This document shows positions 6,091 to 34,529 of a DNA stretch of 50,245 nt, in pieces; position 1 is the stretch's first letter; each line of letters opens with the position of its first letter. Below the pieces are notes generated by a model, which did no database searches, had not been told where the DNA came from, and saw nothing but the letters and a program-made list of their open reading frames with translations. Where the stretch lies: positions 1 to 50,245 of the forward strand of contig NZ_FMXA01000014.1 in assembly GCF_900103425.1 (NCBI RefSeq). The letters are read 5' to 3'. A program made the position numbers and the translations under genes. The DNA comes from Dialister histaminiformans (GTDB lineage Bacteria; Bacillota; Negativicutes; Veillonellales; Dialisteraceae).

Positions 6091-6840
6091 TTACCGCATG
6101 GAAATCCGGTTTAGCCATTGCAGCGCGTCATCCATCATATTTATGGTCACAAAATGTCCAAGCCCGGGATAGGTTCGGTATTCTGCCCTGGTATTCGTCT
6201 GATGGAGCACATTATAAAAGTGCTGCTGAGCCTGCATAGCCACGGATGCATCCGCTTCTCCGCTTAAAAGCAGACAGGGAATATCTTTCATTTCCCCGGT
6301 ATGAGCCAGCGGAGTATTTTCCTCAACCTGATTACGCAGCGTCCAGTGACTGGCGAGATTCATATGGAATCGCTGTTCAAAAAAATGATGGCTTTCCATC
6401 CAGTCTCCTGATCCGTTCATAGAGATAATTCCGTTCAGGCGGTCCGCATACCGGCTCCCAATCCCCAGAGCAATAAATCCGCCCATTGAATGCCCCATAA
6501 CCACGGGATAACATCCCATGTCAGCGGCAATAAACGAACTGAGCTCCTCATATTCTTCTGTGGTCGCCAGAACCGTATGCCAGAACCGGTCATAGTCCTG
6601 CACACAATAGTAATCAGGCAGAGTCCCTCTCTGCCCATGATTAATCAGTTCAGGGATAAACACCGTATACCCGTATGCTGCCATGAGCAAAGCCTTTGAC
6701 AGCTGTTTCTCGCTGTCTGTACTCCAGCCATGATAAAAAACGACCGGACGGTTATCGGAGGGAACCCCTGGAGATACTTTAAGTACAGGAACAGGCCCTG
6801 CCTTTTCCCATACCGCCCGGGGACCATACAGCTTCAGCAT
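6091..6840 (-). CDS. Alpha/beta hydrolase (lysophospholipase/esterase-like)
   Basis: The 249-residue product has the alpha/beta hydrolase fold. The segment VVFYHGWS early in the sequence carries the oxyanion-type HGW; GHSMGG near residues 117-122 is the nucleophile elbow with the catalytic serine; the acid is probably the Asp in SGEADASV and the base the His of GLGHFV near the C-terminus. No signal peptide, so it should be cytoplasmic. The start ATG at 6840 overlaps the last seven bases of the acyltransferase gene and has AAGGGA just upstream, which fixes this start over the longer frame from 6885. Overlap with an LpxL-like gene suggests a role with lipid or acyl substrates, but this is inference. 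Confidence 0.83.
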   Translation of the reverse strand: MLKLYGPRAVWEKAGPVPVLKVSPGVPSDNRPVVFYHGWSTDSEKQLSKALLMAAYGYTVFIPELINHGQRGTLPDYYCVQDYDRFWHTVLATTEEYEELSSFIAADMGCYPVVMGHSMGGFIALGIGSRYADRLNGIISMNGSGDWMESHHFFEQRFHMNLASHWTLRNQVEENTPLAHTGEMKDIPCLLLSGEADASVAMQAQQHFYNVLHQTNTRAEYRTYPGLGHFVTINMMDDALQWLNRISMR

Positions 6841-8828: not shown

Positions 8829-9278
8829 TCACTTTGTCTCAGATGAAGAACTTCCCTGATTCAGTCCTGCAATAACTTCATCAGTTATATCAGTTGCGCC
8901 ATATGGAACCATACCATTACGCAAAACAATAGTATAGCCCTTATCCTTGGCTATCTTCTGGCACTGCGCTGAAACCATGGATTCTACCTGATTCTGCTTG
9001 CTCTGCATAAAAATAGCCTGTTCCTGCTGTGCTTCTGCAAATTTACTCTGCAGTTCATCCTGCGAAAGTCCCTGCTTCTGTGCTGCTTCCAGTCTTGAAG
9101 CGATTTCATTATTTTTCGTCTCTATCTGCGCTTCAATTGCCTTGACTTTAGGAGACTTCATGGCAATCGTCTGATAATTAACAACAGCTACCTTTTCCCC
9201 AGATCCACATCCGGATACTATAGCCGCCGTAACAATCAGCCCCATACAGGCCAATTTTTTCCACATTGGCTGTTTCAT
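8829..9278 (-). CDS. OmpH/Skp-like lipoprotein
   Basis: A 149-residue member of the OmpH (Skp) periplasmic chaperone family, with a lipoprotein signal peptide: hydrophobic ACMGLIVTAAIV then lipobox VSGC, giving a lipidated cysteine near residue 24. The mature part begins VAVVNYQTI, the family's first beta strand, then a long helical, Gln- and Ala-rich hairpin (about 45-110), then the closing strand GYTIVLRNGMVPYGATDITDEV. Skp grips unfolded outer-membrane proteins on their way to BamA. Classical Skp is soluble, so membrane anchoring is a variation. It lies 14 bases after another ompH-like gene and 8 before lpxD. Confidence 0.85.
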   Translation of the reverse strand: MKQPMWKKLACMGLIVTAAIVSGCGSGEKVAVVNYQTIAMKSPKVKAIEAQIETKNNEIASRLEAAQKQGLSQDELQSKFAEAQQEQAIFMQSKQNQVESMVSAQCQKIAKDKGYTIVLRNGMVPYGATDITDEVIAGLNQGSSSSETK

Positions 9279-9292
9279 TTATAACTAACCTC

Positions 9293-10252
9293 CTAGTAAC
9301 TATCACTAATCAATGTGTTAACCAGATCTCCAGTTACATCTTCTCCAGATACATTGGCTACACATCTGGTAAAAATCATCTTCAATCCTTTTTTCTGAGC
9401 CACTTTGGCAGCATCTTTGCGGATATCATTCATCATGTCACTCTTCAGCGCAGCCATCTGAGCCTGTTTAGCCTTAATTTTCTTCTCCCATGCAGCATTC
9501 CATTTATCTGCATCCGGAAGGCCGGTTACTCCTGCCTGTGTATTAACTTTTGAAGGTGTCTTTCGATTCTTGATTTCCTCAGCCACACTCTTCGCGTAAG
9601 TATCCAGTTCTGTCATAGCTTTGGCTTTTGCGGAAGTCATCTGCTCAATTTCTTCCTTGCTCCACCCCTGCATGGATTCTTTATCCCCAGATGCATACCG
9701 GCTGTTCAGGAGCTGTCCAATTCGCTGCATGGTCTCTGCCTTTTCCTTAGAAGACAGATCGAGCACAGTCAGACGGAGCTGAAGATTGGCCAGTTCATTG
9801 CTGTCCGCTTCGCTGAGGCCTGTAAGAGTCCCAGTGGACACCTGCTGCGTCTTATGGCTGTCAGAAATCTTTTTGTACAGGTTCTGCAGATTGCGGTTCA
9901 GTTCATCTTCCTTCACTTTGACGCGGGACATATATTCATCCTTATCTGCCTGTGCCACCGCTTCTGACTGTATAGCCCTGTTTATCTTTTCCTGATTGGT
10001 TGCAATCGAAATAAAGTGCTGCTGTTCCGATTTATAGGAATCCAGCATGTGATTATATTCGGTTTCCAGCTGAAAATATTCGCTATAACGGGGATGAGCC
10101 TTAACCACCGTTTCCATATCCACGAATCCATAGACCGGTTTTGCGGTCTGTACCGATTCTGGTTCCGGTTGCCTGTTATGCACAGCAAATAAGATACCTG
10201 CTGCCGCGCACAGACAAAGAATCATGGCCCCTGCCTTAACTGGAATCTTCAT
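9293..10252 (-). CDS. Large OmpH/Skp-like protein, membrane-anchored or secreted
   Basis: At 319 residues this is twice the usual Skp length. The N-terminus (MKIPVKAGAMILCLCAAAGILFAV) is an uncleaved anchor or signal peptide. The OmpH fold is recognisable at both ends: VYGFVDMETVVKAHPRYSEY near residues 40-59 and GLKMIFTRCVANVSGEDVTGDLVN at the C-terminus, while about 200 residues of helical, charged sequence between them form an elongated coiled-coil region that may represent two merged hairpins. A role as a periplasmic chaperone or spacer for outer-membrane proteins follows from family and position (between two other ompH genes). The precise function is unknown. Confidence 0.75.
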   Translation of the reverse strand: MKIPVKAGAMILCLCAAAGILFAVHNRQPEPESVQTAKPVYGFVDMETVVKAHPRYSEYFQLETEYNHMLDSYKSEQQHFISIATNQEKINRAIQSEAVAQADKDEYMSRVKVKEDELNRNLQNLYKKISDSHKTQQVSTGTLTGLSEADSNELANLQLRLTVLDLSSKEKAETMQRIGQLLNSRYASGDKESMQGWSKEEIEQMTSAKAKAMTELDTYAKSVAEEIKNRKTPSKVNTQAGVTGLPDADKWNAAWEKKIKAKQAQMAALKSDMMNDIRKDAAKVAQKKGLKMIFTRCVANVSGEDVTGDLVNTLISDSY

Positions 10253-10261
10253 AATTTATCC

Positions 10262-10765
10262 TTACTTCTTTGCAGAGCTTGCCTTAGCCGCCTGCTGAGT
10301 CATTGCATCAGAAACGTCCTTGGTAATATCTACGCCACCATAAACCACTGCACTCTTTTCTACTACCAGAGAGAGGCCCTTCTTGGATGCAACTGCCTTA
10401 GCTGCCGATTCAATCTGGCCCTGCATATCCTTTTCGATAGCCGCACGCTTTTCAGCAAACTGCTGGCTCATATCATTATAGAGTTTCTGCTTTTCTGCGT
10501 CAGTCATTTTAGCGGACTTGGTGTCAAAGTCCTTTTTCATGGAATCTGCAGTCTGCTGAAGTTTCTGCTGGTACTGAAGCGCAACCGCCTGGTTATTCTG
10601 CAATACTTCCTGCTGATCCACTACACCAATATCAGAATTCGGAGCGGCGTTGGCCACATCTCCCATGGACATCAGCGCCATACCACCGATGGAAAGAATA
10701 AATACACCTGCCAGTCCAAGTGAAAAGATTTTAATATTTCTCTTACTTCCTAATGATGACATCAT
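10262..10765 (-). CDS. OmpH/Skp family periplasmic chaperone
   Basis: This 167-residue protein has the standard Skp size. An N-terminal hydrophobic segment (IKIFSLGLAGVFILSIGGMALMSMG) is followed by DIGVVDQQEVLQNN, the family's first strand, then a charged helical hairpin (about 55-130) and the closing strand SLVVEKSAVVYGGVDITKDVSDAM. Skp prevents aggregation of outer-membrane proteins in the periplasm before BamA inserts them. The AGGAGAG ribosome site supports ATG 10765. It is the first of three tandem ompH-like genes between the POTRA-like protein and lpxD, an expanded version of the bamA-skp-lpxD order known in Proteobacteria. Confidence 0.88.
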   Translation of the reverse strand: MMSSLGSKRNIKIFSLGLAGVFILSIGGMALMSMGDVANAAPNSDIGVVDQQEVLQNNQAVALQYQQKLQQTADSMKKDFDTKSAKMTDAEKQKLYNDMSQQFAEKRAAIEKDMQGQIESAAKAVASKKGLSLVVEKSAVVYGGVDITKDVSDAMTQQAAKASSAKK

Positions 10766-10782
10766 AATAAATAACTCTCCTT

Positions 10783-12084
10783 CTATAAATTAGCAATCAG
10801 CCGCAGCCAACTACCGTCTTCACTATTATACACATATTCCAGCGTCATGTAATTATGCAACTTATAGGAAATGCCTATTTCATCTTCATGGGCATCCACA
10901 TTTCTGTCATATCTGGCTTCCCATAACCTGCCAAACCCCTGGTGCAGCAGCCAATGTGATTCTCTGTCAGTAAAATCATATTTATATCCTATATAGGTGG
11001 ATTTGCCAAAATAATGCAGCCATCCGCCATAGAGGTTACCATCTACCGGCCCGGGGTAAAAACGTGCTTCTCCAAATACAACATCATGTTTCTTCACATA
11101 ATGCCCCAGAAGTCCTTCGATAGCTGTATTTTTTTCTCCGCTCCGTCCCGCATCCAGCCAGGCCTGTCCCTGAATTATCCAGTGATCAGTAAGCGCATCC
11201 ACCAGAAGTTCTGTTTCACTTCCACAATGCAGATCAGTATCAATTTCCAGATCATACCTTCTGATGAAGGAGTCTTCCTCCAACTGATTCTGCATATATT
11301 CCCGGATTTCCTCCTTATGCCGATCCACAAAAGCAACCGGAAGGCCTTCAAGACTCCTCATCGAACCTTCCGCCCTGTTAGCGGCATTATACATGAATAA
11401 TCTGGGCACTGTAGTTTTCCGGAACGTCAATACGCCCCGACGGACGATTGTCCCCTGTGGAAGCAGCGAAACGTGCACCACTGTATTTTCGCCGGACTCT
11501 ACATGCAACCGGGCATCAAATTCCGGGAGCGCATTTTTTACAATAGTCTGCCCGGCAGACTGAGATACACTGTCGGCCCATCCGATGGAATCCACCGGAA
11601 GTCCTGTCAGAAGCGCATTCATCTCTCCCGGCAGCCCTGCCAGATCTTCTTTAACCAGTGTCTGGGCCAGAGGCGTCAGATTACCGTAATCCACCTCGGT
11701 GCGAACGGATTTAATCGTCTGCCCTACCGGCATAAGCACCACATTCATGGTTGTTTCCTGTCCATAGTTCAGAGACATATCGGAAACCACATAGCCAACC
11801 ACTACCCGGTTCACTATATCCGCCAGTACCTTATCATACTGGTACCGGTTATTCTGGAAGATTTCCGCCTCTTTTCCAACCAGGACCCGATTTCCAATCG
11901 AAGCCAGGCTGGCCTCGATTCTCTGTCTGACAGAAGGAGGCATCTCCCCATCTGTCGATGTGAGATTCACATGGACGGACAGAATAGATGCCGCTTCTGA
12001 AATCCCCGGCGCCATGGAGAAAACAGCGCTGAGAATCCCTGCATATAGAGCTATCTTCCTGACATAACGCAAAGAAGAAAGCAT
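10783..12084 (-). CDS. Exported protein with POTRA-like modules, unknown family
   Basis: I do not recognise this 433-residue protein. It has a signal peptide (cleavage near residue 32, SEAAS). The mature part appears to be three similar modules of about 90 residues: roughly 34-121, 122-211 and 212-302. Modules end in beta strands of the form VVLMPVG or VSLLPQG and are followed by QTI or GTI, and they carry helices with LPGEM/LPVAF patterns; this recalls POTRA domains. The last 130 residues are rich in alternating aromatic and polar residues (YGGWLHYFGKSTYIGYKYDF) and end WLRLIANL, compatible with a short outer-membrane beta segment. It sits between bamA (17 bases) and the ompH genes, so a role in outer-membrane assembly is likely by context only. 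Confidence 0.7.
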   Translation of the reverse strand: MLSSLRYVRKIALYAGILSAVFSMAPGISEAASILSVHVNLTSTDGEMPPSVRQRIEASLASIGNRVLVGKEAEIFQNNRYQYDKVLADIVNRVVVGYVVSDMSLNYGQETTMNVVLMPVGQTIKSVRTEVDYGNLTPLAQTLVKEDLAGLPGEMNALLTGLPVDSIGWADSVSQSAGQTIVKNALPEFDARLHVESGENTVVHVSLLPQGTIVRRGVLTFRKTTVPRLFMYNAANRAEGSMRSLEGLPVAFVDRHKEEIREYMQNQLEEDSFIRRYDLEIDTDLHCGSETELLVDALTDHWIIQGQAWLDAGRSGEKNTAIEGLLGHYVKKHDVVFGEARFYPGPVDGNLYGGWLHYFGKSTYIGYKYDFTDRESHWLLHQGFGRLWEARYDRNVDAHEDEIGISYKLHNYMTLEYVYNSEDGSWLRLIANL

Positions 12085-12101: not shown

Positions 12102-14123
12102 TCAGAACTGTGTTCCGAAACTGAAGTGGAACTTGTTTTGATCCCCATGACCGTAATCCAGTCTGATTGGTCCAAGAGGTGTCTGTACACGCAATCCCAC
12201 ACCAACTGCTGCATGGATGGAATCATCATCCTGATACCATGGCATCTTGCCTTCCTGAACATCCCAGGCACTGCCCACATCGGTAAACAGAACGGCTTCT
12301 ACCTTCTTAGCAACCGGGATTCGGTATTCAAGGGTTGCTTCATACATCTTGCGGCCCTTGAACTGATCATCTTCGTAGCCGCGGAGAGAATCTGCGCCAC
12401 CGAGATCAAACAGGTTGTTGTAGGAAATATCCCCATCAATATAGCCGCCCATCAGACGAAGTGCCAGAACATGACCGTTGCCTAAAGCTTTATAGAAACG
12501 GCCTTCTGCTGTGAACTTGTAGTAATCATAGTCACCGCCAAGTCCATGTCCGCCCCATTCGGTAGTGAAGGAGAGGCGACGGCCCTTGGTCGCATTGAAA
12601 TAATTATCACGGTTATCAAATACATGGGTAAAGGTGAAGCTGTTGGTACGTCCGAAGTTATCCATAATCTTCTTGTACCAATCACTATCACGGTAATCGG
12701 TTATACCGTTCTTTCTCATGTATTTTTCCATTACGCTGCCCGGATCAAACCCGTCTTCATCATCATAGGATTCCTTGGTTGTGGAAAGATAAAATTTGTT
12801 GGTCCGGTATTCACCATTCACATGAGCCCAGGAAACGCCAAAGCCTTTCTTTCTCTTATCATATTCTGCAATGGTGTCACCATTGGAATCATAGTCATCA
12901 TACTTATAACGACGATCAAATACGGTAAAGCCCAGTGCATCTCCGTTGTCATTGATGTATGGATGGGTATAGGAGATTTCATAGTTCTTGCCATGAGAAG
13001 AACCACCAAATTCCCAGCGGAAGTTGACCTTGTCACCGGTTCCACGGAAATTGTTTTCAGTCAGGCCAAGAATACCTACCATGCCGTCGGATTCAGAGTA
13101 CCCGGCACCTACAGTAACTACGCCTGTCTTCTGTTCTACTACATCAATTTCAATGATAACGTCATGATTTTTGTTTCCCGGAAGAAGCTTCATATTGACA
13201 TCTTCAAAAATTCCGAGGTTGTAAAGTCGTTCCATACTGCGGCTTGCCAGGAACTTATTAAACGGTTCCCCCTTCTTGAAGCGCAGTTCACGAAGAATAA
13301 CCTTATCCTTGGTCTTTTCATTTCCGGCAATCTGAATATCTTCTATCTTTCCTTCTGCAATATTCACCTTAAGGGTTCCGTTTTCAGTTACGGTTACATC
13401 CGGAATAGATGCCAGAATATATCCCTGCTGTACATATAGATCATCAATAGCTTTGATGTTTCTGGATACCTGAACGAAATTCAGTACACTGTCCTTGGGA
13501 ACAGCCAGAATCTGTCTCAGTTCATCATCAGAGAAAACCGTATTTCCTTCAAAAGTGACTTTATGGATAACCGGGTTGGAAACCATACGGAATGTGAGGG
13601 TTACCCCTTCCTTAACCGCTCCAAACTGTGGAGAAATCTGGGAGAATACCCCGGTTCCGCCCAATGCGGCCACATCATTGCGTACGCCTTCTACAGAGAC
13701 CTTGTCACCGGTCTTTTCCGTAAGAAGGGGAACCAGCTTGGCCTTAACTTCTTCCGGAATTCCATCAAAGTCAATGGAAGTGATAGTCTTACCTGCTGCC
13801 TTCGCAATGGCCTTGTCATCATCCGGAGCCAGATACATGGATGCTGTATCTGCCAGGGAAGCCTGTGCCGTATTTCTGATATCTACCCCAGACTGATCAT
13901 TATCACCGGAAGCCTGCAGAGTCGTTGTCTTGCTGCTGTCAGATGTCGCAGCAGACACATCAATATCATCTGCCTGATCCTCTGTTTTTCCCTGGGTAAC
14001 ATTGTACATTTCACTCTGAGACATATTGCTATTCGCAATATCCGGGGCTGCATAGACGTTAAACCCAGAAACAGCCATAACAACAGCTGTTGTGAGCAGA
14101 GCTTTCTTGTAACCTGTAATCAT
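12102..14123 (-). CDS. bamA: Outer membrane protein assembly factor BamA
   Basis: BamA inserts beta-barrel proteins into the outer membrane. The 673 residues comprise a signal peptide (cleavage near VYAA, 26), an acidic Ser/Asp-rich stretch (about 30-105), three recognisable POTRA domains (about 112-182, 185-257, 258-333) and a 16-strand-type barrel (about 336-673). The SLRGYED segment near 579-585 is the conserved RG(F/Y) loop 6 motif, and the protein ends in Phe as expected of the beta-signal. Only three POTRAs are visible against five in E. coli. Genes for BamB-E are not in the window. It is co-directional with tamB and the ompH genes. Confidence 0.96.
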   Translation of the reverse strand: MITGYKKALLTTAVVMAVSGFNVYAAPDIANSNMSQSEMYNVTQGKTEDQADDIDVSAATSDSSKTTTLQASGDNDQSGVDIRNTAQASLADTASMYLAPDDDKAIAKAAGKTITSIDFDGIPEEVKAKLVPLLTEKTGDKVSVEGVRNDVAALGGTGVFSQISPQFGAVKEGVTLTFRMVSNPVIHKVTFEGNTVFSDDELRQILAVPKDSVLNFVQVSRNIKAIDDLYVQQGYILASIPDVTVTENGTLKVNIAEGKIEDIQIAGNEKTKDKVILRELRFKKGEPFNKFLASRSMERLYNLGIFEDVNMKLLPGNKNHDVIIEIDVVEQKTGVVTVGAGYSESDGMVGILGLTENNFRGTGDKVNFRWEFGGSSHGKNYEISYTHPYINDNGDALGFTVFDRRYKYDDYDSNGDTIAEYDKRKKGFGVSWAHVNGEYRTNKFYLSTTKESYDDEDGFDPGSVMEKYMRKNGITDYRDSDWYKKIMDNFGRTNSFTFTHVFDNRDNYFNATKGRRLSFTTEWGGHGLGGDYDYYKFTAEGRFYKALGNGHVLALRLMGGYIDGDISYNNLFDLGGADSLRGYEDDQFKGRKMYEATLEYRIPVAKKVEAVLFTDVGSAWDVQEGKMPWYQDDDSIHAAVGVGLRVQTPLGPIRLDYGHGDQNKFHFSFGTQF

Positions 14124-14161: not shown

Positions 14162-14752
14162 TTACTGACCACGCAATGCGCGGCCGGCTTCACCAACTAC
14201 ACTCTGTATTTCTTTCTCTGACATGACCGGAGCCGGACGTACCGGTTTTTCCACGGGTTGTTCCGCCGCCTTCTTCCGGTTTTCCTGCTTCTGTACAGTC
14301 TTTGAGCTGACAGTCGTCTTCACCTTTTCTGCACGTTTCCGTGGAGGTTCTGACACTTCTGTCTGAGGCGGCTGCGCATCGGCTGCCGCCCTGGTTACTT
14401 CTTTTTCAGATATTAAATTTTCATTTGGATTCGATACGGCAGCTTCTGGTACCGTTGTCGACATCTGACCTCCACTGGCTGGTGGGGCTGACGAACCCGA
14501 TTCTGCCTGCATCCTGTCATACATAAAGGAACTGCCTGCAAAGACAATGACCGCCATAACCATAGCTGCACATCGGATAATCCATTTTTTCTTTCTTGTC
14601 CAATCATGCACTTCGTCCAGCCGGTTCATTTCTGCACGGGCCATTATCAGATTCAGTTCTCCTGATAATTCTTTATGGGAGGAATACGATTTTTCCGCTT
14701 TTTCCAGCCATTTCCGTATGGATTTGACACGGTTGACTTTATCACCTGGCAT
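14162..14752 (-). CDS. Single-pass membrane protein with Lys/Pro-rich extracytoplasmic part; possible anti-sigma factor
   Basis: No family is recognised in this 196-residue protein. Residues 1-57 are hydrophilic and helical (RKWLEKAEKSYSSHKEL), 58-77 form one transmembrane segment behind KKK, and the remaining ~118 residues are Ser/Pro/Lys-rich with a short C-terminal helix (MSEKEIQSVVGEAGRALRG). The Arg/Lys-rich flank puts the N-terminus in the cytoplasm and the tail in the periplasm, the layout of membrane-bound anti-sigma factors, and the gene lies immediately downstream of a sigma-factor gene. The Lys/Pro tail would also suit a periplasm-spanning linker of TonB type. AGGAGGG precedes the ATG. 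Both roles are inference. Confidence 0.65.
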   Translation of the reverse strand: MPGDKVNRVKSIRKWLEKAEKSYSSHKELSGELNLIMARAEMNRLDEVHDWTRKKKWIIRCAAMVMAVIVFAGSSFMYDRMQAESGSSAPPASGGQMSTTVPEAAVSNPNENLISEKEVTRAAADAQPPQTEVSEPPRKRAEKVKTTVSSKTVQKQENRKKAAEQPVEKPVRPAPVMSEKEIQSVVGEAGRALRGQ

Positions 14753-14833
14753 GGCACACCCCTCCTTTTTATATATAATCGGAGGTATAACCGAAAAAAC
14801 AAACTGTCATAACCGGTAAAAATATACAATATT

Positions 14834-14847
14834 TCCGGGAAAACCCG
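14834..14847 (-). terminator. Short hairpin between sigma gene and TM-protein gene
   Basis: CCGGG/CCCGG with a four-base loop lies about 35 bases after the sigma-factor stop; the following minus-strand sequence is AT-rich but not a clean T-run. It could lower read-through rather than stop it. Confidence 0.25.
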
Positions 14848-14878
14848 GTAATTACTCGGAAATTCGCCTCAATTCCGG

Positions 14879-15502
14879 CTATTTTCTATCATGCATCAAT
14901 CTGGACAGCATTCCACGCATGCGACGGATACCTTTCTTCTCCAGCTTATATACATAAGCGGTACTGACATCCATAGCATCCGCTGTTTCGGCTGCCGTCT
15001 TTTCCTTATAGTATACATTCCGAAGAACATCCTGCTCCCTCCCGGGAAGCCGGGAAAAAGCGCTGTTTACCGCATGATTCAGCGAATCAAAATCCGCCGA
15101 TTCAAACGCCGTATCCCCGGTAGCCGACTGCAGATAAGGCTGTGCCTGTATTTCATCCTGCATATCCACCAGCACTTCCTGCCGGTTCTGGCGCAGAAAA
15201 TCTATCATCCTGCCACGTACACGGTGCAGGGCATAAAGCGAAAAAGCCACTCCGTTATCCGGATTGAATTTTTCCGCTGCTTCCATAAGGCCGACCATCC
15301 CCTCCTGAATCAGGTCCAGTACAACGGTTTCCTGCAGAGGATATTTTATTGCCTCCTTAAATACAAGCAGCTGGTAATGCTCTATGATTTCCTGTCTGGC
15401 CTCGATATCTTCATCTTCCTTATACCGTTTCCAAAGGGCCATTTCTTCTTCCCATGTCAGTTTCCTGACATGGCTCAGGCTGCTCACATACTCACTTAAC
15501 AT
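14879..15502 (-). CDS. Sigma-70 family RNA polymerase sigma factor
   Basis: This 207-residue protein has sigma region 1.2/2.1 (LTWEEEMALWKRYKED, about 15-30), region 2.2-2.4 (DLIQEGMVGLMEAAEKFNPDNGVAFSLYA, core-binding and -10 recognition, about 63-91; then RGRMIDFLR) and region 4 with a helix-turn-helix (LPGREQDVLRNVYYKEKTAAETADAMDVS, about 153-181). Region 3 is short or absent, so it is a compact alternative sigma of group 3/4 type. It begins nine bases after tamB and precedes a single-TM protein and bamA. Its placement inside an outer-membrane operon suggests envelope-linked regulation; its target promoters are unknown. Confidence 0.88.
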   Translation of the reverse strand: MLSEYVSSLSHVRKLTWEEEMALWKRYKEDEDIEARQEIIEHYQLLVFKEAIKYPLQETVVLDLIQEGMVGLMEAAEKFNPDNGVAFSLYALHRVRGRMIDFLRQNRQEVLVDMQDEIQAQPYLQSATGDTAFESADFDSLNHAVNSAFSRLPGREQDVLRNVYYKEKTAAETADAMDVSTAYVYKLEKKGIRRMRGMLSRLMHDRK

Positions 15503-15511
15503 AGTGTACTC

Positions 15512-18500
15512 CTAGAAATTAAAGCTCCAGTCCGCTCCTACATACTTATCATGTTCACTATTATACCACGCGGAAACCCCCAGGCGGTTTTTCAGATTAT
15601 AGTAAAAACCAAGACTGTTCTGTTCGTTATTAATTCCTGTAGTAACCGTAAGCATAAAATCATTAAACAGATATTTACCAATCTTTATATAGTAATAGCT
15701 GTCATTCTGCTTTAAATCACTTTCATACCCTTCATTCAGGCTGGAGGTCACACTGATATAATCCAATCCTATGGTCTGTTTGAGGTAATCCTGTACCCCG
15801 CTGTTAAATACCATCTGCAGTCCTGCATTAAACAGCGCCCCCTGTACCGCATCATTATCCGGACTGGATGGATCAGAATGTACCGTAAGCAATGTAACAA
15901 TCTGAGAATCATTCAATGCTGGCTCACTGTTCAGTTCAAATCGGAAAGCCCCTGGAGGTCCGGAAAGCTTCATATCTACAGTGTAATGGCCCACCTTGGT
16001 TCCCGCCGCCAGATTTATCACTGGCAGGATGGAATCAGGCACTCCGCCCCAGATAGCGTATCCATCAGTCACATTAAATTCATTGGAAAGATAATGGATC
16101 GTACCATTCAGTACATTGACGCGTCCAGATGATATCGGTGCAGACAGCGGTCCTATAATCTTAATATTTCCTTTGATTGCCAGATCATAAAGCATACTGT
16201 TATAGAGCTTCACATTGTCTCCAATCTGTATATCCAGATTGGTATTTACAGGCAATGAACCATCACCGGATTCAAAGGATAATGGAATATCCACTGTGGC
16301 GTCATGAATCGATACAGTTCCTTTAATTCCCGGTTTGCCAAACATCTCAGCAATAGTCAGATCGGTATCCAGTGCCCCATTATAATAGGTAGACTGAATG
16401 GCAGGTGCATGCACCTGAACGGTTCCTTCATAGCTGGTCAGGCTACCCTTATCCCAGCTCGTTTTCCCGGTAATCGCTGCCGTGCCGCCCCCAAGGACCG
16501 ACTGCAGATTCAAATCTGCTGATTTGCCATTTAACTGAATCTGCCCTGAAATACCGGTAACGGCTTCCTTCATGCTTTCTATCATCATGGAACCATCGGA
16601 GATGGCAATACCCCCGTTAAGCTCAGGATCAGTCCAGGGCCCGGTTACCTTAACATGTCCCTTTATGGGTCCTTCCGCTGAGGTAACCGCATTGGTAAGC
16701 ATAGCCAGAATGTTAAGATCTGCATTATCCAGATTAATATCCAGATTCATGGGAGCCGCATTTGCCGTATTTACCCTGGTGAATGCATTAATTGGCATGG
16801 TACCGTACATAGTGGCCTTATAGGGGCCCTTTACAACCAGACCATGCTGGATAAATACCTTCCCCTGGGTAATCAGCCCCATAACTGACATGGAATCAAA
16901 TCCAGTGCCGTTATAGGAAGGATTATCAACACCAATGGAAATTTCCGCATTGGGTTTATCCTTTGTTCCTGACAGTTTTATCCCTGCCGTCAGGCTGCCA
17001 TCCAGCTGAACATCTTTCCGCCCCAGAACCTGTGGTACCCAGGACAGATTCATATCCTTTGCTGCCATTTGAATATCCAGGCCCCCCTGAGGCGTAGTAG
17101 CCCCCTCAGCAGCCAGAAGTCCCGTCCCTACAGGTATGCGTAACTGACGAATAGTCAACGCTCCATTTCTATAGGACAGATCTATCTTTCCATCCGCAAT
17201 CGGCTGATTTCCCAGATTCCCTTTACTGATAGTGGCGGCAATATCTCCATTTGGATGTTCTATAGAGCCGGTAATATTCATAGCACCACTCATAATCCCT
17301 GATACGTTCTGAACAGGAACCTGAAGTATTTTGGCCGCCTCTGCCATATCCCAGTCAGTAAACTGCAAGTGACCGTCTATGCCCATATTGGTCAAATTGA
17401 TACTGCCTTTCCAGGTAAAATCACCGCTTCCCTGTTTAAACATGCCATTAGTAACAGAAATGACATGATTTGCATAGTCAATATCCGCATTAACCAGTCC
17501 CATATAAGCTTCCCCTATGCGGATAGACCGGCTTTCCACATGTCCGCCAAATATGGGATTACTGAGACTGCCAGTGACCTGCCCACGAAGAGTAATCTTA
17601 CCATCCACTTGATTGTTTAACAGAATACGACCAGCATCGACATCTACCAGTTCCACATGCATGTCAATGGCCTTTTCTGAAGCTGTCCCCTGAACTGAGG
17701 CCGTTCCTCCATAAGCGTTTCCCAGGCCATTGGATATGCTGAGTACCCCATCTTTAAAGGAATAATCGGCGCCAATGCTCTGATACAGCTGACCCATAAC
17801 CGAGCCATTCCAGGCCAGAATTTCCCCTGTAACCACCGGATTCTTCAATGTTCCCGTAATGGTCATATTGTTGTTTACGTATCCGGTAATCGGATAGGAC
17901 ATCCCTGCCAACATCAGAACCTGTTCTGCCCGGATATTCTGAGACTTAACCTTCAGATTTAATGAAGACTGAGCGTTGAATCCCAGCATACCGGAAATTT
18001 CATGACTCCCTTCACGGGTATTCCAGCGCAGATTGTCTATACGCGCACCGTTCCGGTCCAGTGTAAGACTGCCGGATATATCAGTAAACTCCATACCCTT
18101 TATGGATCCATCAGACGCATATATGCTGCCCTGATATACCGGAGATTTCATGGTACCGGTAATCCGGCCATGGAGAGATGCCACCCCGGACATAGCTACC
18201 CCGGCCACATGGGATACTCCCTTTAACGATATACGTTCCGCATCCACCAGAAGATTCATCTGGCGGTCAGATGCCATTCCGGAAATATGGAATGCCCCCT
18301 GTCCGGAAAGACCATCTGCAGAAATAATATTCCATATATTTCCCGCCTTGGTCACATTAGCTGATATCCTGTCTGCCTGCATTCCCTGATAGGTAAATCG
18401 GCTGGCATTTATCACTGCATTAAGATTATTTCCGAATAAAGTAACGGATCCGGTCACGGCTCCGACGGAAGCCCCATGCCCTTTAATCTGTGTACCGCTA

Positions 18501-19888
18501 AAGCGGCCATATGCAGAATCCAGGTGCGGAGTACCTCCGGAAAGTGTACCTTCTGCCTGAATCTGTCCGGACAGTATACCACTGACACCATAAGAGCGTG
18601 CCAGGGTTCCTATATCCGCATTATGGGCAATGACATTGACTGAGAATTTTCCGCTATGCATAGCATAGCTTCCTGTCCCATCCAGAGAGCCATTTCCAAG
18701 CTGACCATGGAAATCAGAAAGAGTCAGTTTTTCTCCATCCCATAAGAAAGCTCCCTGCCCTTTTTTCAGATGTACTCCCTGAACACTGATGTCTGAGCCG
18801 GAAACTCGGCCGCTGGCAGACAGTTTATCTGTGGTTCCATATACGTGTACAGTCCCATTTACCCTGCCGCTGGCAGACTGACCTGGAAGAAGTGCTGCCA
18901 GGTCTATATCCTGTCCACGGAAACTGCCATCTACAGATGTTGACTTTCCCCAGTCTGCGGAGAGTCTGCCCTTAATGGCCTGTCCGTTAACCTGCATTGA
19001 CAGCGTATGGATTCCCGCGTGACCGTTGAATACATCAAAGTCCGCATAGCCGCCGGAGAAACGATAATTCTTATACCGCCCGCCTGCATCATTAATCTGT
19101 GCGGAAGCATGAAGGGAAATGGTTCCATTTCTGTTCCAGAGATGGCCTTTCTGTACAAAAAGCTTTCCCTGTTCTATGTGAAGATCGTTCATGGCTTCCG
19201 GATAGGATATGCCCAGCTGATAAATCAAAGTCAGTGGAAGACCATCCGCTGTCACTTCTCCATCATAGTGACTGGAATCTTTATAATTGAAATCCATACG
19301 GGTCAGCGCCTTTTCTACCTGTCCGGTAAAGGCTCCGTGGATAATCTGCGCATCATCCCAGCGCAGCTGGCCATTCAGGGAAGAAACATGTACAGCTGAA
19401 CCGGCTGCCGGTACAGCAAGCACACTTCCGTCATGAATGAGGACCCGGCCATAAAATCTGGAAGCCGGTGTACTGTTATCCACAATAATCAGATGAGAGA
19501 CGTTCCAGCCCTGTTCTCCATCTTTATATACCTGAACTGCCGGTTTGTCAGCCACAATGCTGGTAATGGCAGCCAGGGTATCTCTGTCATCAAAAAAAGA
19601 GCGCATTAAAGCACACACAGACCAGTTGACTGTTAATTGAGGCGACTTTAAGACATCCCTCCCTTTTTTATCCTTTACATCCAGCTCATTAATTCGGATA
19701 TCAAGGCCAGGGGTCAATTCCATAGACTGCCATGTAAGCTGTCCATTAATTTTTTTCTTTGCTGTCGATGCCACCGCCTCATTAATTGCAGGAACTGCAT
19801 AATAATGAGCCAGTACACCGGTCAACAGTGCCAGTACTACAAGTATGGCACTCAAAATCCCCAATCGCTTAATCCATGTGTGCTTCAA
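15512..19888 (-). CDS. tamB: Translocation/assembly module TamB (DUF490 family)
   Basis: TamB is a very long periplasm-spanning protein that links inner and outer membranes; in other diderms it is implicated in outer-membrane protein insertion and phospholipid transport. The 1458 residues include an N-terminal signal anchor (about 8-28), an AsmA-like start (ELTPGLDIRINELDV), a long body of repeated beta strands with recurring ISGxM/GSIxG patterns, and the conserved C-terminal DUF490 block (about 1130-1458) ending in ADWSFNF. The dominant repetitive beta structure fits the known lipid-groove (taco) fold. The TolC gene lies upstream and the sigma gene follows nine bases after its stop. No TamA gene is present; BamA would be the likely outer-membrane partner. 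Confidence 0.95.
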   Translation of the reverse strand: MKHTWIKRLGILSAILVVLALLTGVLAHYYAVPAINEAVASTAKKKINGQLTWQSMELTPGLDIRINELDVKDKKGRDVLKSPQLTVNWSVCALMRSFFDDRDTLAAITSIVADKPAVQVYKDGEQGWNVSHLIIVDNSTPASRFYGRVLIHDGSVLAVPAAGSAVHVSSLNGQLRWDDAQIIHGAFTGQVEKALTRMDFNYKDSSHYDGEVTADGLPLTLIYQLGISYPEAMNDLHIEQGKLFVQKGHLWNRNGTISLHASAQINDAGGRYKNYRFSGGYADFDVFNGHAGIHTLSMQVNGQAIKGRLSADWGKSTSVDGSFRGQDIDLAALLPGQSASGRVNGTVHVYGTTDKLSASGRVSGSDISVQGVHLKKGQGAFLWDGEKLTLSDFHGQLGNGSLDGTGSYAMHSGKFSVNVIAHNADIGTLARSYGVSGILSGQIQAEGTLSGGTPHLDSAYGRFSGTQIKGHGASVGAVTGSVTLFGNNLNAVINASRFTYQGMQADRISANVTKAGNIWNIISADGLSGQGAFHISGMASDRQMNLLVDAERISLKGVSHVAGVAMSGVASLHGRITGTMKSPVYQGSIYASDGSIKGMEFTDISGSLTLDRNGARIDNLRWNTREGSHEISGMLGFNAQSSLNLKVKSQNIRAEQVLMLAGMSYPITGYVNNNMTITGTLKNPVVTGEILAWNGSVMGQLYQSIGADYSFKDGVLSISNGLGNAYGGTASVQGTASEKAIDMHVELVDVDAGRILLNNQVDGKITLRGQVTGSLSNPIFGGHVESRSIRIGEAYMGLVNADIDYANHVISVTNGMFKQGSGDFTWKGSINLTNMGIDGHLQFTDWDMAEAAKILQVPVQNVSGIMSGAMNITGSIEHPNGDIAATISKGNLGNQPIADGKIDLSYRNGALTIRQLRIPVGTGLLAAEGATTPQGGLDIQMAAKDMNLSWVPQVLGRKDVQLDGSLTAGIKLSGTKDKPNAEISIGVDNPSYNGTGFDSMSVMGLITQGKVFIQHGLVVKGPYKATMYGTMPINAFTRVNTANAAPMNLDINLDNADLNILAMLTNAVTSAEGPIKGHVKVTGPWTDPELNGGIAISDGSMMIESMKEAVTGISGQIQLNGKSADLNLQSVLGGGTAAITGKTSWDKGSLTSYEGTVQVHAPAIQSTYYNGALDTDLTIAEMFGKPGIKGTVSIHDATVDIPLSFESGDGSLPVNTNLDIQIGDNVKLYNSMLYDLAIKGNIKIIGPLSAPISSGRVNVLNGTIHYLSNEFNVTDGYAIWGGVPDSILPVINLAAGTKVGHYTVDMKLSGPPGAFRFELNSEPALNDSQIVTLLTVHSDPSSPDNDAVQGALFNAGLQMVFNSGVQDYLKQTIGLDYISVTSSLNEGYESDLKQNDSYYYIKIGKYLFNDFMLTVTTGINNEQNSLGFYYNLKNRLGVSAWYNSEHDKYVGADWSFNF

Positions 19889-24190: not shown

Positions 24191-26086
24191 TTATTTTTTT
24201 TCTTCACTTCCTGAATCTGCATCCTGAGCTTCATTTTCGTTATCGGCATGCATCTCTGCCACCGCTTTCTTCCGGCTGTTTATCATCTTTTTCAGCGCTG
24301 CATCTCTTTTAGCTTCAGGCAATACAGTAAATGTAAACTGACCATCTCCGTAAATCACATAGTCGGTATCCGCACGGCTTCTTGGCCTTTCCGCATTATC
24401 ACTGTCTTTGTTGGACTTATTATCCTCTTTATGAAGGTAGTCCGGAGTATCCTGCACCTTTTTCCCCTGAATCTCCGCTGATGCCCTGCCATCATCTTCT
24501 TTAGATATCATGCTGACATTCGGATCCAGAATTTCTATAACCACCTGATTATTCTGATCCTCATCCATAATATTTTTCTGCAGATCGTCAAAATTCTTGT
24601 ATGTACGCAGGCGATCCAGTACTTCATCCGACAAATTATATTTCTGCTGTTCCAACAGATAAGGAAGCGGTATTACACCACCACCGCGCACTTCCAGCAT
24701 CATTTTTCCATATGGCTGGTCTTTCGGTACGGTAAATGTCATATCCTTATAAAATACATCACCTCTGTATGCCTGCAGGCGGACACGCAGATAAATGGTA
24801 TCCCCAGGGCTTACAATCATCGGTGTTGCTGTTGCATCCAGTATTCTCGCTGTCTTTCTGTCCTTTGTCACCGACATGTTAACGTCGATATTCCGCAGGT
24901 CATAATCCTTAAATCGATTATCAGCCAGAATCTTCAGTACATCATAAATCTCATCTACGCTGCGGGACGCAATGTCCGATGAAGACCAGTACATATTGGT
25001 CCGTGTAAACGGTTTCTGCGCATTATCCGCCGGATAGAAAGTGTATGTGAACTTTACTGTTCCTTCACCGCTTCTGTCCATGGTACTGCTGATAGCGTTA
25101 TATACAGAGGTCGCGGAAAGAGTAGGAAGCAGTTTCTGACTCTTAATCATCCGTACGTCCAGATTTCGTGTAAAACGAAGGTCTTCATCTGTTACCCGGG
25201 CATGCAACGGAACAAAAGATGGACTTTCGCCGCTGACACCACTGATTCCTGTACCTCTGTCCTGATTGATTTCTCCGATTTCCGCTCCCACTGACCCCAG
25301 TTTAAACGGTGTATTCGTGCTGGGTATAACCGTGAAAATGTAGGAATTATGCATAAAATACCCAGTATTTCCCGCATTCATAAACGGATGGCCAAAAGCC
25401 AGGATATGGTCACCATCCACATAGGTTACCGTCCCTATGGCTCCCAGTTTTAAATCGCCTGTAATCATGGTGGCGGCTACGGAGCTTCCCGGATACAATG
25501 GCAGTTTCCGGTCATCCTCTCCGGAAGAGGCTGCCGAATAGGGTGTCATATGGAATCCCTTCATTTTTTCCGAAAGGAAATTCATCCCATCGGCGGTGTA
25601 TCCCGATGCCATCAGTGGTGTCTCCAGCGGAATCAGATGGTTAACATCCGGTTCCATAGTGCTGGATTCGTTATCATCAATAGCCCAGAGCTTCAGCATG
25701 TCCTCAATAGGCGTAACCATGCCGATACGGCCGCCGGACTGTGGAAAGCCATAAGCCACCGCCCCCAGAAGCTTCCCATTGATATATACCGGACTTCCGC
25801 TCATCCCCTGGGCAATGCCATTAGTCTTATCAATAAGTGGTCCGGATACTTTTACGAGGACAAGATCTCCCCCATTGGCCCCCTTATTTTTCAGCACACC
25901 AAGTACATCCACATTGAATGTATCTATGGTCGTGCCATGAACAACGGTTTTAGCCAATCCATGCATACCTTCCCGTACGGAAGAAACCGGCATGAAGGGA
26001 TCGGCCCATGCCGAAGCTCCGCTGAAAAGCAGTGCACATCCCACCATAACTGCCAGTTTATATTTCCTGATCCACTTAGATTTCAT
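24191..26086 (-). CDS. SpoIVB-type S55 peptidase domain protein
   Basis: The 631-residue exported protein begins with a signal peptide (cleavage near AWAD, about 29) followed by a SpoIVB peptidase S55 domain (about 30-250). The catalytic serine lies in QGMSGSPVY, and GHP in DHILAFGHPFMN is also conserved in the family. S55 peptidases cleave signalling proteins in spore formers, but this protein lacks the SpoIVB PDZ order and has a large C-terminal region of unknown role (about 260-631) ending in a charged tail. The organism is not known to sporulate, so this is probably an envelope protease. I chose ATG 26086 since GGGGGA lies six bases upstream. It overlaps no gene but follows the lipoyl-like gene by 18 bases. 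Confidence 0.85.
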   Translation of the reverse strand: MKSKWIRKYKLAVMVGCALLFSGASAWADPFMPVSSVREGMHGLAKTVVHGTTIDTFNVDVLGVLKNKGANGGDLVLVKVSGPLIDKTNGIAQGMSGSPVYINGKLLGAVAYGFPQSGGRIGMVTPIEDMLKLWAIDDNESSTMEPDVNHLIPLETPLMASGYTADGMNFLSEKMKGFHMTPYSAASSGEDDRKLPLYPGSSVAATMITGDLKLGAIGTVTYVDGDHILAFGHPFMNAGNTGYFMHNSYIFTVIPSTNTPFKLGSVGAEIGEINQDRGTGISGVSGESPSFVPLHARVTDEDLRFTRNLDVRMIKSQKLLPTLSATSVYNAISSTMDRSGEGTVKFTYTFYPADNAQKPFTRTNMYWSSSDIASRSVDEIYDVLKILADNRFKDYDLRNIDVNMSVTKDRKTARILDATATPMIVSPGDTIYLRVRLQAYRGDVFYKDMTFTVPKDQPYGKMMLEVRGGGVIPLPYLLEQQKYNLSDEVLDRLRTYKNFDDLQKNIMDEDQNNQVVIEILDPNVSMISKEDDGRASAEIQGKKVQDTPDYLHKEDNKSNKDSDNAERPRSRADTDYVIYGDGQFTFTVLPEAKRDAALKKMINSRKKAVAEMHADNENEAQDADSGSEEKK

Positions 26087-26104
26087 TACCATTCCCCCAG
26101 CCAA

Positions 26105-32910: not shown

Positions 32911-33390
32911 TCAGAGATGATATGGCTCATGTCTCATGATTTTCATCGCCCGGTAAATCTGTTCTGTCAGAATCAGCCTTGCCATCTGGTGTGTCAGTGT
33001 TATCTGGCCAAGACAGAACCTGAGCTGTGCCCTTTTCCTCAGCAAATCGCTGTTACCATAAGGACCTCCGATAAGGAAACAGAAATGGCTGCTTCCTGTT
33101 ACCATCTTTTTTTCCATCCAGTGGGAAAAATCTTCTGAACTCATTTCCTTTCCCTTTGTATCCAGAAGGATCACGCAGGCTCCTTCCGGAACATATTTCA
33201 ACAGTTTTTCCGCTTCCCGATCCAGTGCCTTAGTAATATCCGCGGGAGAAGGATTATCCGGAACCCGTTCTTCCCCCTGCTCAATAAATTCCACTCTGCC
33301 CATCCCGGACAGCCGTTTAGTGTATTCGGCTATTCCTGCCTTCATCCACTTTTCTTTGATTTTCCCAATGCCGATTACAGAAAATTTCAT
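32911..33390 (-). CDS. rlmH: 23S rRNA (pseudouridine1915-N3)-methyltransferase RlmH
   Basis: RlmH methylates pseudouridine 1915 in helix 69 of 23S rRNA, using S-adenosylmethionine in a SPOUT fold. The 159-residue length is exact for the family. The SAM-binding trefoil-knot segments FLIGGPYGNSD (about 105-115) and LTHQMARLILTEQIYRAMKIMRHEPYH (C-terminal) are diagnostic. It overlaps the htrA stop by four bases, the same htrA-rlmH order found at the B. subtilis walRK locus. Confidence 0.96.
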   Translation of the reverse strand: MKFSVIGIGKIKEKWMKAGIAEYTKRLSGMGRVEFIEQGEERVPDNPSPADITKALDREAEKLLKYVPEGACVILLDTKGKEMSSEDFSHWMEKKMVTGSSHFCFLIGGPYGNSDLLRKRAQLRFCLGQITLTHQMARLILTEQIYRAMKIMRHEPYHL

Positions 33391-34529
33391 TTCCCGTCAT
33401 CCTCTCCCAAAACTACCACGGCGGTTCTGGTGTGACCACTATGTTCATAGGTGATGGTTACCTTATCCCCTGGTTTATAGTTCATCATTACATTTCTCAG
33501 TTCAGACAGGGAATTGGTTGCCTTTCCATTAATCTGCATAATATAGTCTCCGCGTACAATATCGCTTCCATCCAGAGGACTGCCGTCAGCAATCTTGTAT
33601 ACATAGATTCCCCCGTTATGATCCCAGGAGATGCCGTTTCTAGCTGCCAGTGTCTTATCAATCCCATATAAGCCCAGATATGGACGGGTAACATGCCCAT
33701 TGCTGATGAGCTGAGAAACGATAGCCTTCACCTGGTTGATTGGAATGGCAAATCCCATCCCTTCTACCCCGGCTTTTGCAATCTTAGCACTGTTGATACC
33801 GATAACCTTTCCATCGGCCGTACAGAGGGCTCCTCCGGAATTGCCCGGATTAATTGCCGCATCTGTCTGAATAAGTTTAATCTGCTGTTCTACATCATCC
33901 AGTGTACGATTCAGCGCACTGATGACCCCAACCGTTACGGTACCTCTGAATTCAAGGCCCAGCGGATTACCAATGGCTACTGCGGTTTCCCCAGGCTGCA
34001 GGGAATCGGAATTACCAAATTCAGCTACCGGAAGTTTATCACTGCCCGGAATTTTTACCACCGCCAGATCGGTTACCGCATCCGTTCCGATAACCTTCCC
34101 TGTGACTACCTGACCATCAGAGAGTGCTACGTTGACCTGTCGATTATTACCTACTACATGGTTATTGGTAACAATATATCCTTTTTTATCAAAAATAACA
34201 CCGGACCCTACATTTTGCCCCACTTCCACATTCCGGTTAAAGATGTCGCGGTCATACACTTCAGATGTAATCCCGACAACTGCCGGGCCAACTCGTTTAG
34301 CAGTTTCCACTACCGCAGTATTTCTGGAAGCCGGCAGGGTACTTTCCACCGGCGCGCTGGAGTCATTGCTCCATGTATATGTGCCCTGTTCATCTCCTGC
34401 AGGATGCATATGTGTATTTAATTTATATCCGCTTACCCCGCCAATCAGGATAGCTGCAAGAAGGATAACGGCCAGTCTTTTATCAAATCGTCCTTTGCTG
34501 TTATTTATATATTTTCTGTTATTTTTCAA
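33387..34529 (-). CDS. HtrA/DegP-family serine protease
   Basis: The 380-residue envelope protease has an N-terminal transmembrane anchor (about 18-35), a trypsin-like domain with the catalytic triad His 124 (TNNHVV), Asp 154 (TDLAVV) and Ser 231 (GNSGGAL), and a single C-terminal PDZ domain (about 285-375). This is the membrane-anchored HtrA/DegS layout rather than the two-PDZ DegP. It degrades or refolds misfolded extracytoplasmic proteins. The start is TTG 34529 with GGGGG seven bases upstream. It is preceded by an extended -10 promoter and co-transcribed with rlmH. No regulator lies beside it. Confidence 0.93.
   Translation of the reverse strand: MKNNRKYINNSKGRFDKRLAVILLAAILIGGVSGYKLNTHMHPAGDEQGTYTWSNDSSAPVESTLPASRNTAVVETAKRVGPAVVGITSEVYDRDIFNRNVEVGQNVGSGVIFDKKGYIVTNNHVVGNNRQVNVALSDGQVVTGKVIGTDAVTDLAVVKIPGSDKLPVAEFGNSDSLQPGETAVAIGNPLGLEFRGTVTVGVISALNRTLDDVEQQIKLIQTDAAINPGNSGGALCTADGKVIGINSAKIAKAGVEGMGFAIPINQVKAIVSQLISNGHVTRPYLGLYGIDKTLAARNGISWDHNGGIYVYKIADGSPLDGSDIVRGDYIMQINGKATNSLSELRNVMMNYKPGDKVTITYEHSGHTRTAVVVLGEDDGK

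Follow-up and report, generated by a model that had tools for sequence, protein, structure and literature searches.

Sigma factor and membrane protein genes within an outer-membrane gene cluster

The outer-membrane gene cluster of Dialister histaminiformans encloses a gene for a sigma factor and a gene for a protein with a single transmembrane (TM) segment, and the question raised by this locus is whether the two products form a switch that controls the building of the outer membrane. We analyzed a window of 50,245 nucleotides (the whole stretch of DNA under study, NZ_FMXA01000014.1), in which an operon on the minus strand encodes, in this order, an S55 (SpoIVB-like) protease (24191-26104), MlaE, MlaF, MlaD, TolC, TamB, the sigma factor (14879..15502, 207 aa), the TM protein (14162..14752, 196 aa), BamA, a 433-aa protein, three OmpH-like proteins, and LpxD. 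The mlaF and lpxD genes were named by sequence reading and synteny labels, and the remaining genes of the operon were checked with Pfam. The location of the pair between tamB and bamA, proposed in a previous sequence-only reading of the window, was confirmed by the Pfam identification of both neighbors: tamB (15512..19888, minus strand; TamB, E = 6e-28) lies directly upstream of the sigma gene with a gap of 9 nt, and bamA (12102..14123, minus strand; Omp85 and POTRA, E = 5e-53) directly downstream of the TM gene with a gap of 38 nt. The mlaEFD-tolC-tamB ... bamA-ompH-lpx cluster of diderm Firmicutes is already known (PMC5007114, PMC10665443); the main texts of the principal papers on this cluster, these two included, make no mention of a sigma factor in it.

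Several other genes of the window are worth recording. The 433-aa protein encoded right behind bamA (10783-12084, minus strand) has no Pfam match and is conserved at this position in almost every locus; the same holds for most loci from outside the class Negativicutes. The three OmpH/Skp-like proteins are encoded in tandem (8829-10765, minus strand), and the middle one (9293-10252) is long, at 319 aa, and lacks a Pfam match. An HtrA-type protease (33387-34529, minus strand) combines an N-terminal hydrophobic segment with one PDZ domain and is a possible site-1 protease.

A compact sigma factor with features of different sigma groups

The gene at 14879-15502 had been read as encoding a compact sigma-70 factor, and this assignment is supported by Pfam, NCBIfam, PDB relatives, alignment, and AF2 modeling. 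Sigma70_r2 (E = 1e-15) and Sigma70_r4 (E = 2e-10) both match above the Pfam cut-offs, and the score against the NCBIfam sigma70-ECF superfamily is 103 bits (cut-off 43). No Pfam match to Sigma70_r3 was found, leaving only sigma2 and sigma4, a feature shared with ECF (group 4) sigma factors. Members of that group are expected to match Sigma70_r4_2 above the cut-off and to lack region 1.2; the protein described here differs from them on both counts, scoring 17.4 bits with Sigma70_r4_2 (cut-off 25.7) and 40.7 bits, above the cut-off, with Sigma70_r4, and having an N-terminus that aligns with region 1.2 of larger sigma factors (RpoH, RpoS, and SigK types). Among relatives from named genera, matches were obtained in, among others, Dialister (closest), Negativicoccus, Selenomonas, Mitsuokella, Pelosinus, Sporomusa, Phascolarctobacterium, and Megasphaera.

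Sigma70_r2 was detected in three proteins of the D. histaminiformans genome and, because the other two are RpoD-like, the operon-encoded sigma is the only alternative sigma of the Sigma70_r2 kind in this organism. The two RpoD-like primary sigma factors are distinct proteins (L001, 988-2187, and L002, 1021-2190); the gene of one follows an apparent dnaG, and the other is a paralog.

AF2 modeling of the sigma alone and of a read-through fusion with the TM protein produced the same layout of sigma2 and sigma4 relative to known structures, with the pTM rising from 0.60 to 0.66 when a deeper alignment was used. In Foldseek comparisons, the models deviated by 12-15 Å from WhiG and FliA complexes and by 24-26 Å from RNAP-bound sigma factors. 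The fusion had been considered as a sign of docking between the two proteins, an idea that we dropped: the sigma alone yields the same Foldseek pattern, so that the fusion model is no evidence of docking.

A membrane protein conserved at both ends

The TM protein is a candidate membrane anti-sigma factor by virtue of its topology and of class-wide orthologs adjoining the sigma gene. Its best-conserved part is a predicted N-terminal cytoplasmic helical hairpin (aa 1-57; 14582..14752, minus strand), the helices of which span positions 253-274 and 278-334 of the read-through AF2 model, with a pLDDT of about 95. The hairpin is followed by the TM segment (aa 58-76; 14525..14581, minus strand; hydropathy maximum 2.04), a variable linker, and a conserved C-terminal periplasmic helix (MSEKEIQSVVGEAGRALRGQ; 14165..14227, minus strand). 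The 117 homologs compared each contain exactly one hydrophobic segment, starting from near residue 63, and no second one. The 15 residues preceding this segment have a mean net charge of about +3.5, vs -0.4 after it, so that the N-terminus is predicted to face the cytoplasm; the cytoplasmic N-terminus, single TM segment, and periplasmic tail described in the sequence-only reading are thus borne out by hydropathy and charge. Beyond the membrane, the tail typically comprises 84-139 residues and is rich in Pro, Ala, Ser, and Thr.

The N-terminal 50 columns have an information content of 2.43 bits per column and the last 22 columns one of 2.27 bits, compared with 1.08 bits for the linker, which identifies the cytoplasmic head and the periplasmic tip as the conserved parts of the protein. 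The tip motif, roughly LSxxEMQKLVRSAGKSLRG, is also recognizable outside the class. No relatives of the TM protein, including known anti-sigma families, were found in Pfam (E <= 1), NCBIfam, or the PDB.

Co-inheritance of the sigma factor and the TM protein

Conservation of the pair beside bamA across Negativicutes, a check suggested in the sequence-only reading, was assessed in 200 genomes of the class, with presence called from sigma matches at E < 1e-15 and TM profile matches at the same level. Both genes are present in 162 genomes and both absent from 37, a tally compiled manually from the sigma and TM tables, with seven unlisted genomes entered by subtraction. Thus, no sigma without a TM protein and no TM protein without a sigma was found in 199 of the 200 genomes; the discordant one (G026) is 74% complete and carries a sigma fragment truncated where a contig stops. 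In 93 longer loci, the genes almost always follow the order tolC-tamB-sigma-TM-bamA, and 11 genomes from other classes of the phylum carry tamB, sigma, TM, and bamA in the same order. Because it is conserved across the class, the pair is not a chance arrangement.

The pair is absent from at least six lineages, counted from family and genus labels rather than from a tree: one Dialisteraceae genome, Veillonella sensu stricto together with a neighboring genus, one or two lineages in family f18, two or three in f14, and one in f11. Among 26 genomes (25 of those lacking the sigma, plus G026), 23 encode BamA and 21 encode TamB, mostly with tamB directly before bamA and the pair gone. Veillonella sensu stricto includes the usual model V. 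parvula, and the pair is not universal in diderm Firmicutes; the genus was assigned by inference from its size, its kinship, and the named records of V. magna, V. ratti, and the VA142 type, which retain the pair.

Occurrence of homologs apart from the sigma gene had been named as a sign against a functional pair. Such separation exists in one Veillonella lineage (Veillonella sp. VA137, VA142, and 3891), where the sigma gene lies between tamB and thrS and the TM gene precedes bamA elsewhere, and in one genome from outside Negativicutes (L154), where an HD-GYP gene (9387-10652, minus strand) lies between the two; both genes are nevertheless kept in each case. Co-inheritance of the sigma factor and the TM protein is an observed fact. 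Since a single deletion can remove neighboring genes together, co-loss by itself is no proof of interaction. Mean-field coevolution analysis of 116 pairs, an alignment too shallow for interpretation (Neff 93), with unreliable intra-protein contacts and uncontrolled phylogeny, gave top inter-protein scores above those of locally permuted pairings but no independent evidence of docking.

A promoter-like element upstream of the TM gene

The spacer between the sigma and TM genes is usually 120-190 nt long and, in the window, contains a promoter-like element with a GATTATATA core located 28 nt before the TM start (14772..14804, minus strand), the best matrix site in the window. With a window-free matrix, the top site of the whole 50 kb is 14780 (minus strand), with a score of 20.1, the next one scoring 14.0. 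The consensus, about GNYCA...GA[CT]TATAT, lies about 28-45 nt upstream of the TM gene and consists of the GA[CT]TATA core, a weak GNYCA-like block some 20-24 nt upstream of it, and phased A/T tracts; its distance from the start codon is compatible with a -10 element and a leader of about 20 nt. Of 117 loci, 61 have GA[CT]T[AT]TA within the 75 nt that precede the TM start. The strict form GA[CT]TATA precedes the TM gene in 46% of the 117 sigma-containing loci, compared with 1.2% in shuffled sequences (maximum 3.4%), about half of these loci having no exact match, and it was found upstream of bamA in none of 19 genomes lacking the sigma. Given that the element is absent where the sigma is absent, we infer that it is used by this sigma.

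A position matrix built from non-redundant sites was scanned against 2.27 Mb of strand sequence from the cluster loci. Among the 20 sites scoring >= 17.8, 18 stand before the TM gene, including that of L159, a locus outside the training set in which the sigma and TM genes are unlinked and the TM gene retains the element. The 31-nt extended form, searched in 18 genomes, was found before the TM gene in 17, the remaining matches being about as frequent as in the reversed-pattern control; in 10 Dialisteraceae genomes, the TM gene is the only recurring gene behind the short form TYCGATTATAT. The search for promoter motifs before envelope genes proposed in the sequence-only reading thus yielded an element before TM-bamA but no other recurring target in either genome set. 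A stronger sigma-A promoter before bamA in genomes lacking the sigma was considered and rejected, as there was no difference (Mann-Whitney p = 0.28). In Sporomusa-type loci, such as L112 (about 6734-6770), the element holds an almost invariant CCAGAATCTGG inverted repeat, possibly the site of a separate regulator.

A possible but unlikely alternative is that the GATTATAT element serves the housekeeping sigma or another regulator and that the operon's sigma controls genes elsewhere. The clade-specific inverted repeat CCAGAATCTGG, which might bind a repressor or an activator, and the lack of further targets of the element in the genomes searched are consistent with this explanation; the absence of the element from the 19 genomes lacking the sigma argues against it, as does the window itself, the minus strand of which yielded no sigma-A-type promoter upstream of the TM gene.

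A proposed control circuit for the outer membrane

Because the two genes are retained or lost together throughout the class, they probably constitute a control circuit for outer-membrane building. In the reading that we favor and consider fairly probable, the pair consists of a sigma factor and a membrane anti-sigma factor (or obligate regulator), with the sigma driving expression of the TM-bamA operon; binding, inhibition, promoter use, and the signal are all predicted parts of this scheme. The cytoplasmic hairpin of the TM protein would keep the sigma at the inner membrane, and the Pro/Ala-rich tail would extend into the periplasm, where the conserved C-terminal helix may report on the state of the envelope or of outer-membrane assembly; this conserved tip is the obvious candidate for the sensor. 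Engagement or freeing of the tip helix, or cleavage of the TM protein, would release the sigma. Transcription would then start at the GA[CT]TATAT-type promoter that immediately precedes the TM gene and would increase the levels of the TM protein itself (negative feedback), of BamA, and of the products of the genes behind, so that factors for outer-membrane assembly are supplied.

It seems improbable that the TM protein is instead a positive partner of the sigma, that is, a membrane-bound activator or delivery factor, the loss of which would silence the sigma. Co-inheritance fits such a role equally well, and most genomes show a promoter-like site specific to the TM gene instead of translational coupling to the sigma gene, but most of the known single-TM proteins encoded behind sigma genes (RseA, RsiW, and others) are inhibitors. 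We give little credence to a structural role, with the TM protein helping BamA or TamB in outer-membrane assembly and the sigma merely controlling its operon. The periplasmic end is conserved, as expected of an assembly helper, and the TM gene remains beside bamA when parted from the sigma gene (in L159, and in L154 with the HD-GYP gene in between); however, conservation is highest at the cytoplasmic end, and the TM protein is missing, always together with the sigma, from 37 genomes, nearly all of which retain bamA and tamB. Finally, the S55 protease, encoded in the same cluster and related to SpoIVB-type proteases that are part of a sigma-activation cascade in Bacillus, was rejected as a dedicated protease cleaving the TM protein to free the sigma, a very unlikely role given that it is present in every genome tested, including those lacking the pair, is not always linked to it, and has a nearby competitor in the HtrA protease with its TM segment and PDZ domain.

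Relationship to known sigma/anti-sigma systems

The combination of a sigma factor and a single-TM, N-in regulator with a periplasmic tail is shared with RpoE-RseA of Proteobacteria, as is the tie to outer-membrane assembly, here through gene position beside tamB and bamA. RpoE also raises the expression of bamA and chaperone genes. In that system, the regulator binds and inhibits the sigma, and DegS/RseP-type proteolysis upon misfolding of outer-membrane proteins sets it free; the window encodes an HtrA-type protease (33387-34529) with an N-terminal hydrophobic segment and one PDZ domain as a possible site-1 protease. The differences are substantial. As the sequence-only reading had held, the TM protein lacks sequence similarity to RseA: neither the protein encoded in the window (E <= 1) nor any of 37 homologs (E <= 0.01) matches RseA_N or RseA_C in Pfam. 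The sigma has a region 1.2-like N-terminus and Sigma70_r4 instead of Sigma70_r4_2, the pair sits inside the tamB-bamA operon, and no RseB-like gene was found among the neighboring genes scanned with Pfam. We did not assign the pair to RpoE-RseA because it lacks the defining feature, an RseA-type regulator.

Like ECF sigma factors with zinc-binding anti-sigmas of the RsiW and RsrA type, the sigma has sigma2 and sigma4 only and an adjoining membrane protein gene; unlike those anti-sigma factors, none of the 117 TM proteins contains the HxxxCxxC zinc motif. WhiG of the Streptomyces WhiG-RsiG system is among the closest solved sigma structures by both sequence and fold, but it has sigma3, which the sigma described here does not. 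RsiG forms a helical hairpin, as predicted for the head of the TM protein, and is soluble and c-di-GMP-dependent, whereas the TM protein is membrane anchored; PDB chains of the RsiG kind showed no sequence match to it.

We found no description of the pair in the open-access papers searched. Provisionally, then, the pair appears to be an undescribed system that works like RpoE-RseA without belonging to the RseA-type systems. The loss of the pair from Veillonella sensu stricto would also explain how it escaped work on V. parvula. We tentatively suggest, as a possibility well short of probable, that the circuit is ancient and RseA-independent, predating the split between Negativicutes and other diderm lineages of the phylum, and that a two-headed inner-membrane protein that spans the periplasm reads outer-membrane assembly by means of its C-terminal helix and controls bamA itself via the sigma.

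The regulation of outer-membrane making in diderm Firmicutes is apparently unexplored in the searchable literature. If the proposed circuit holds, most of the class, and some genomes outside it, would possess a defined switch acting on a known target, the TM-bamA operon. The circuit would then represent a second solution, unrelated to RpoE-RseA, of the same problem.
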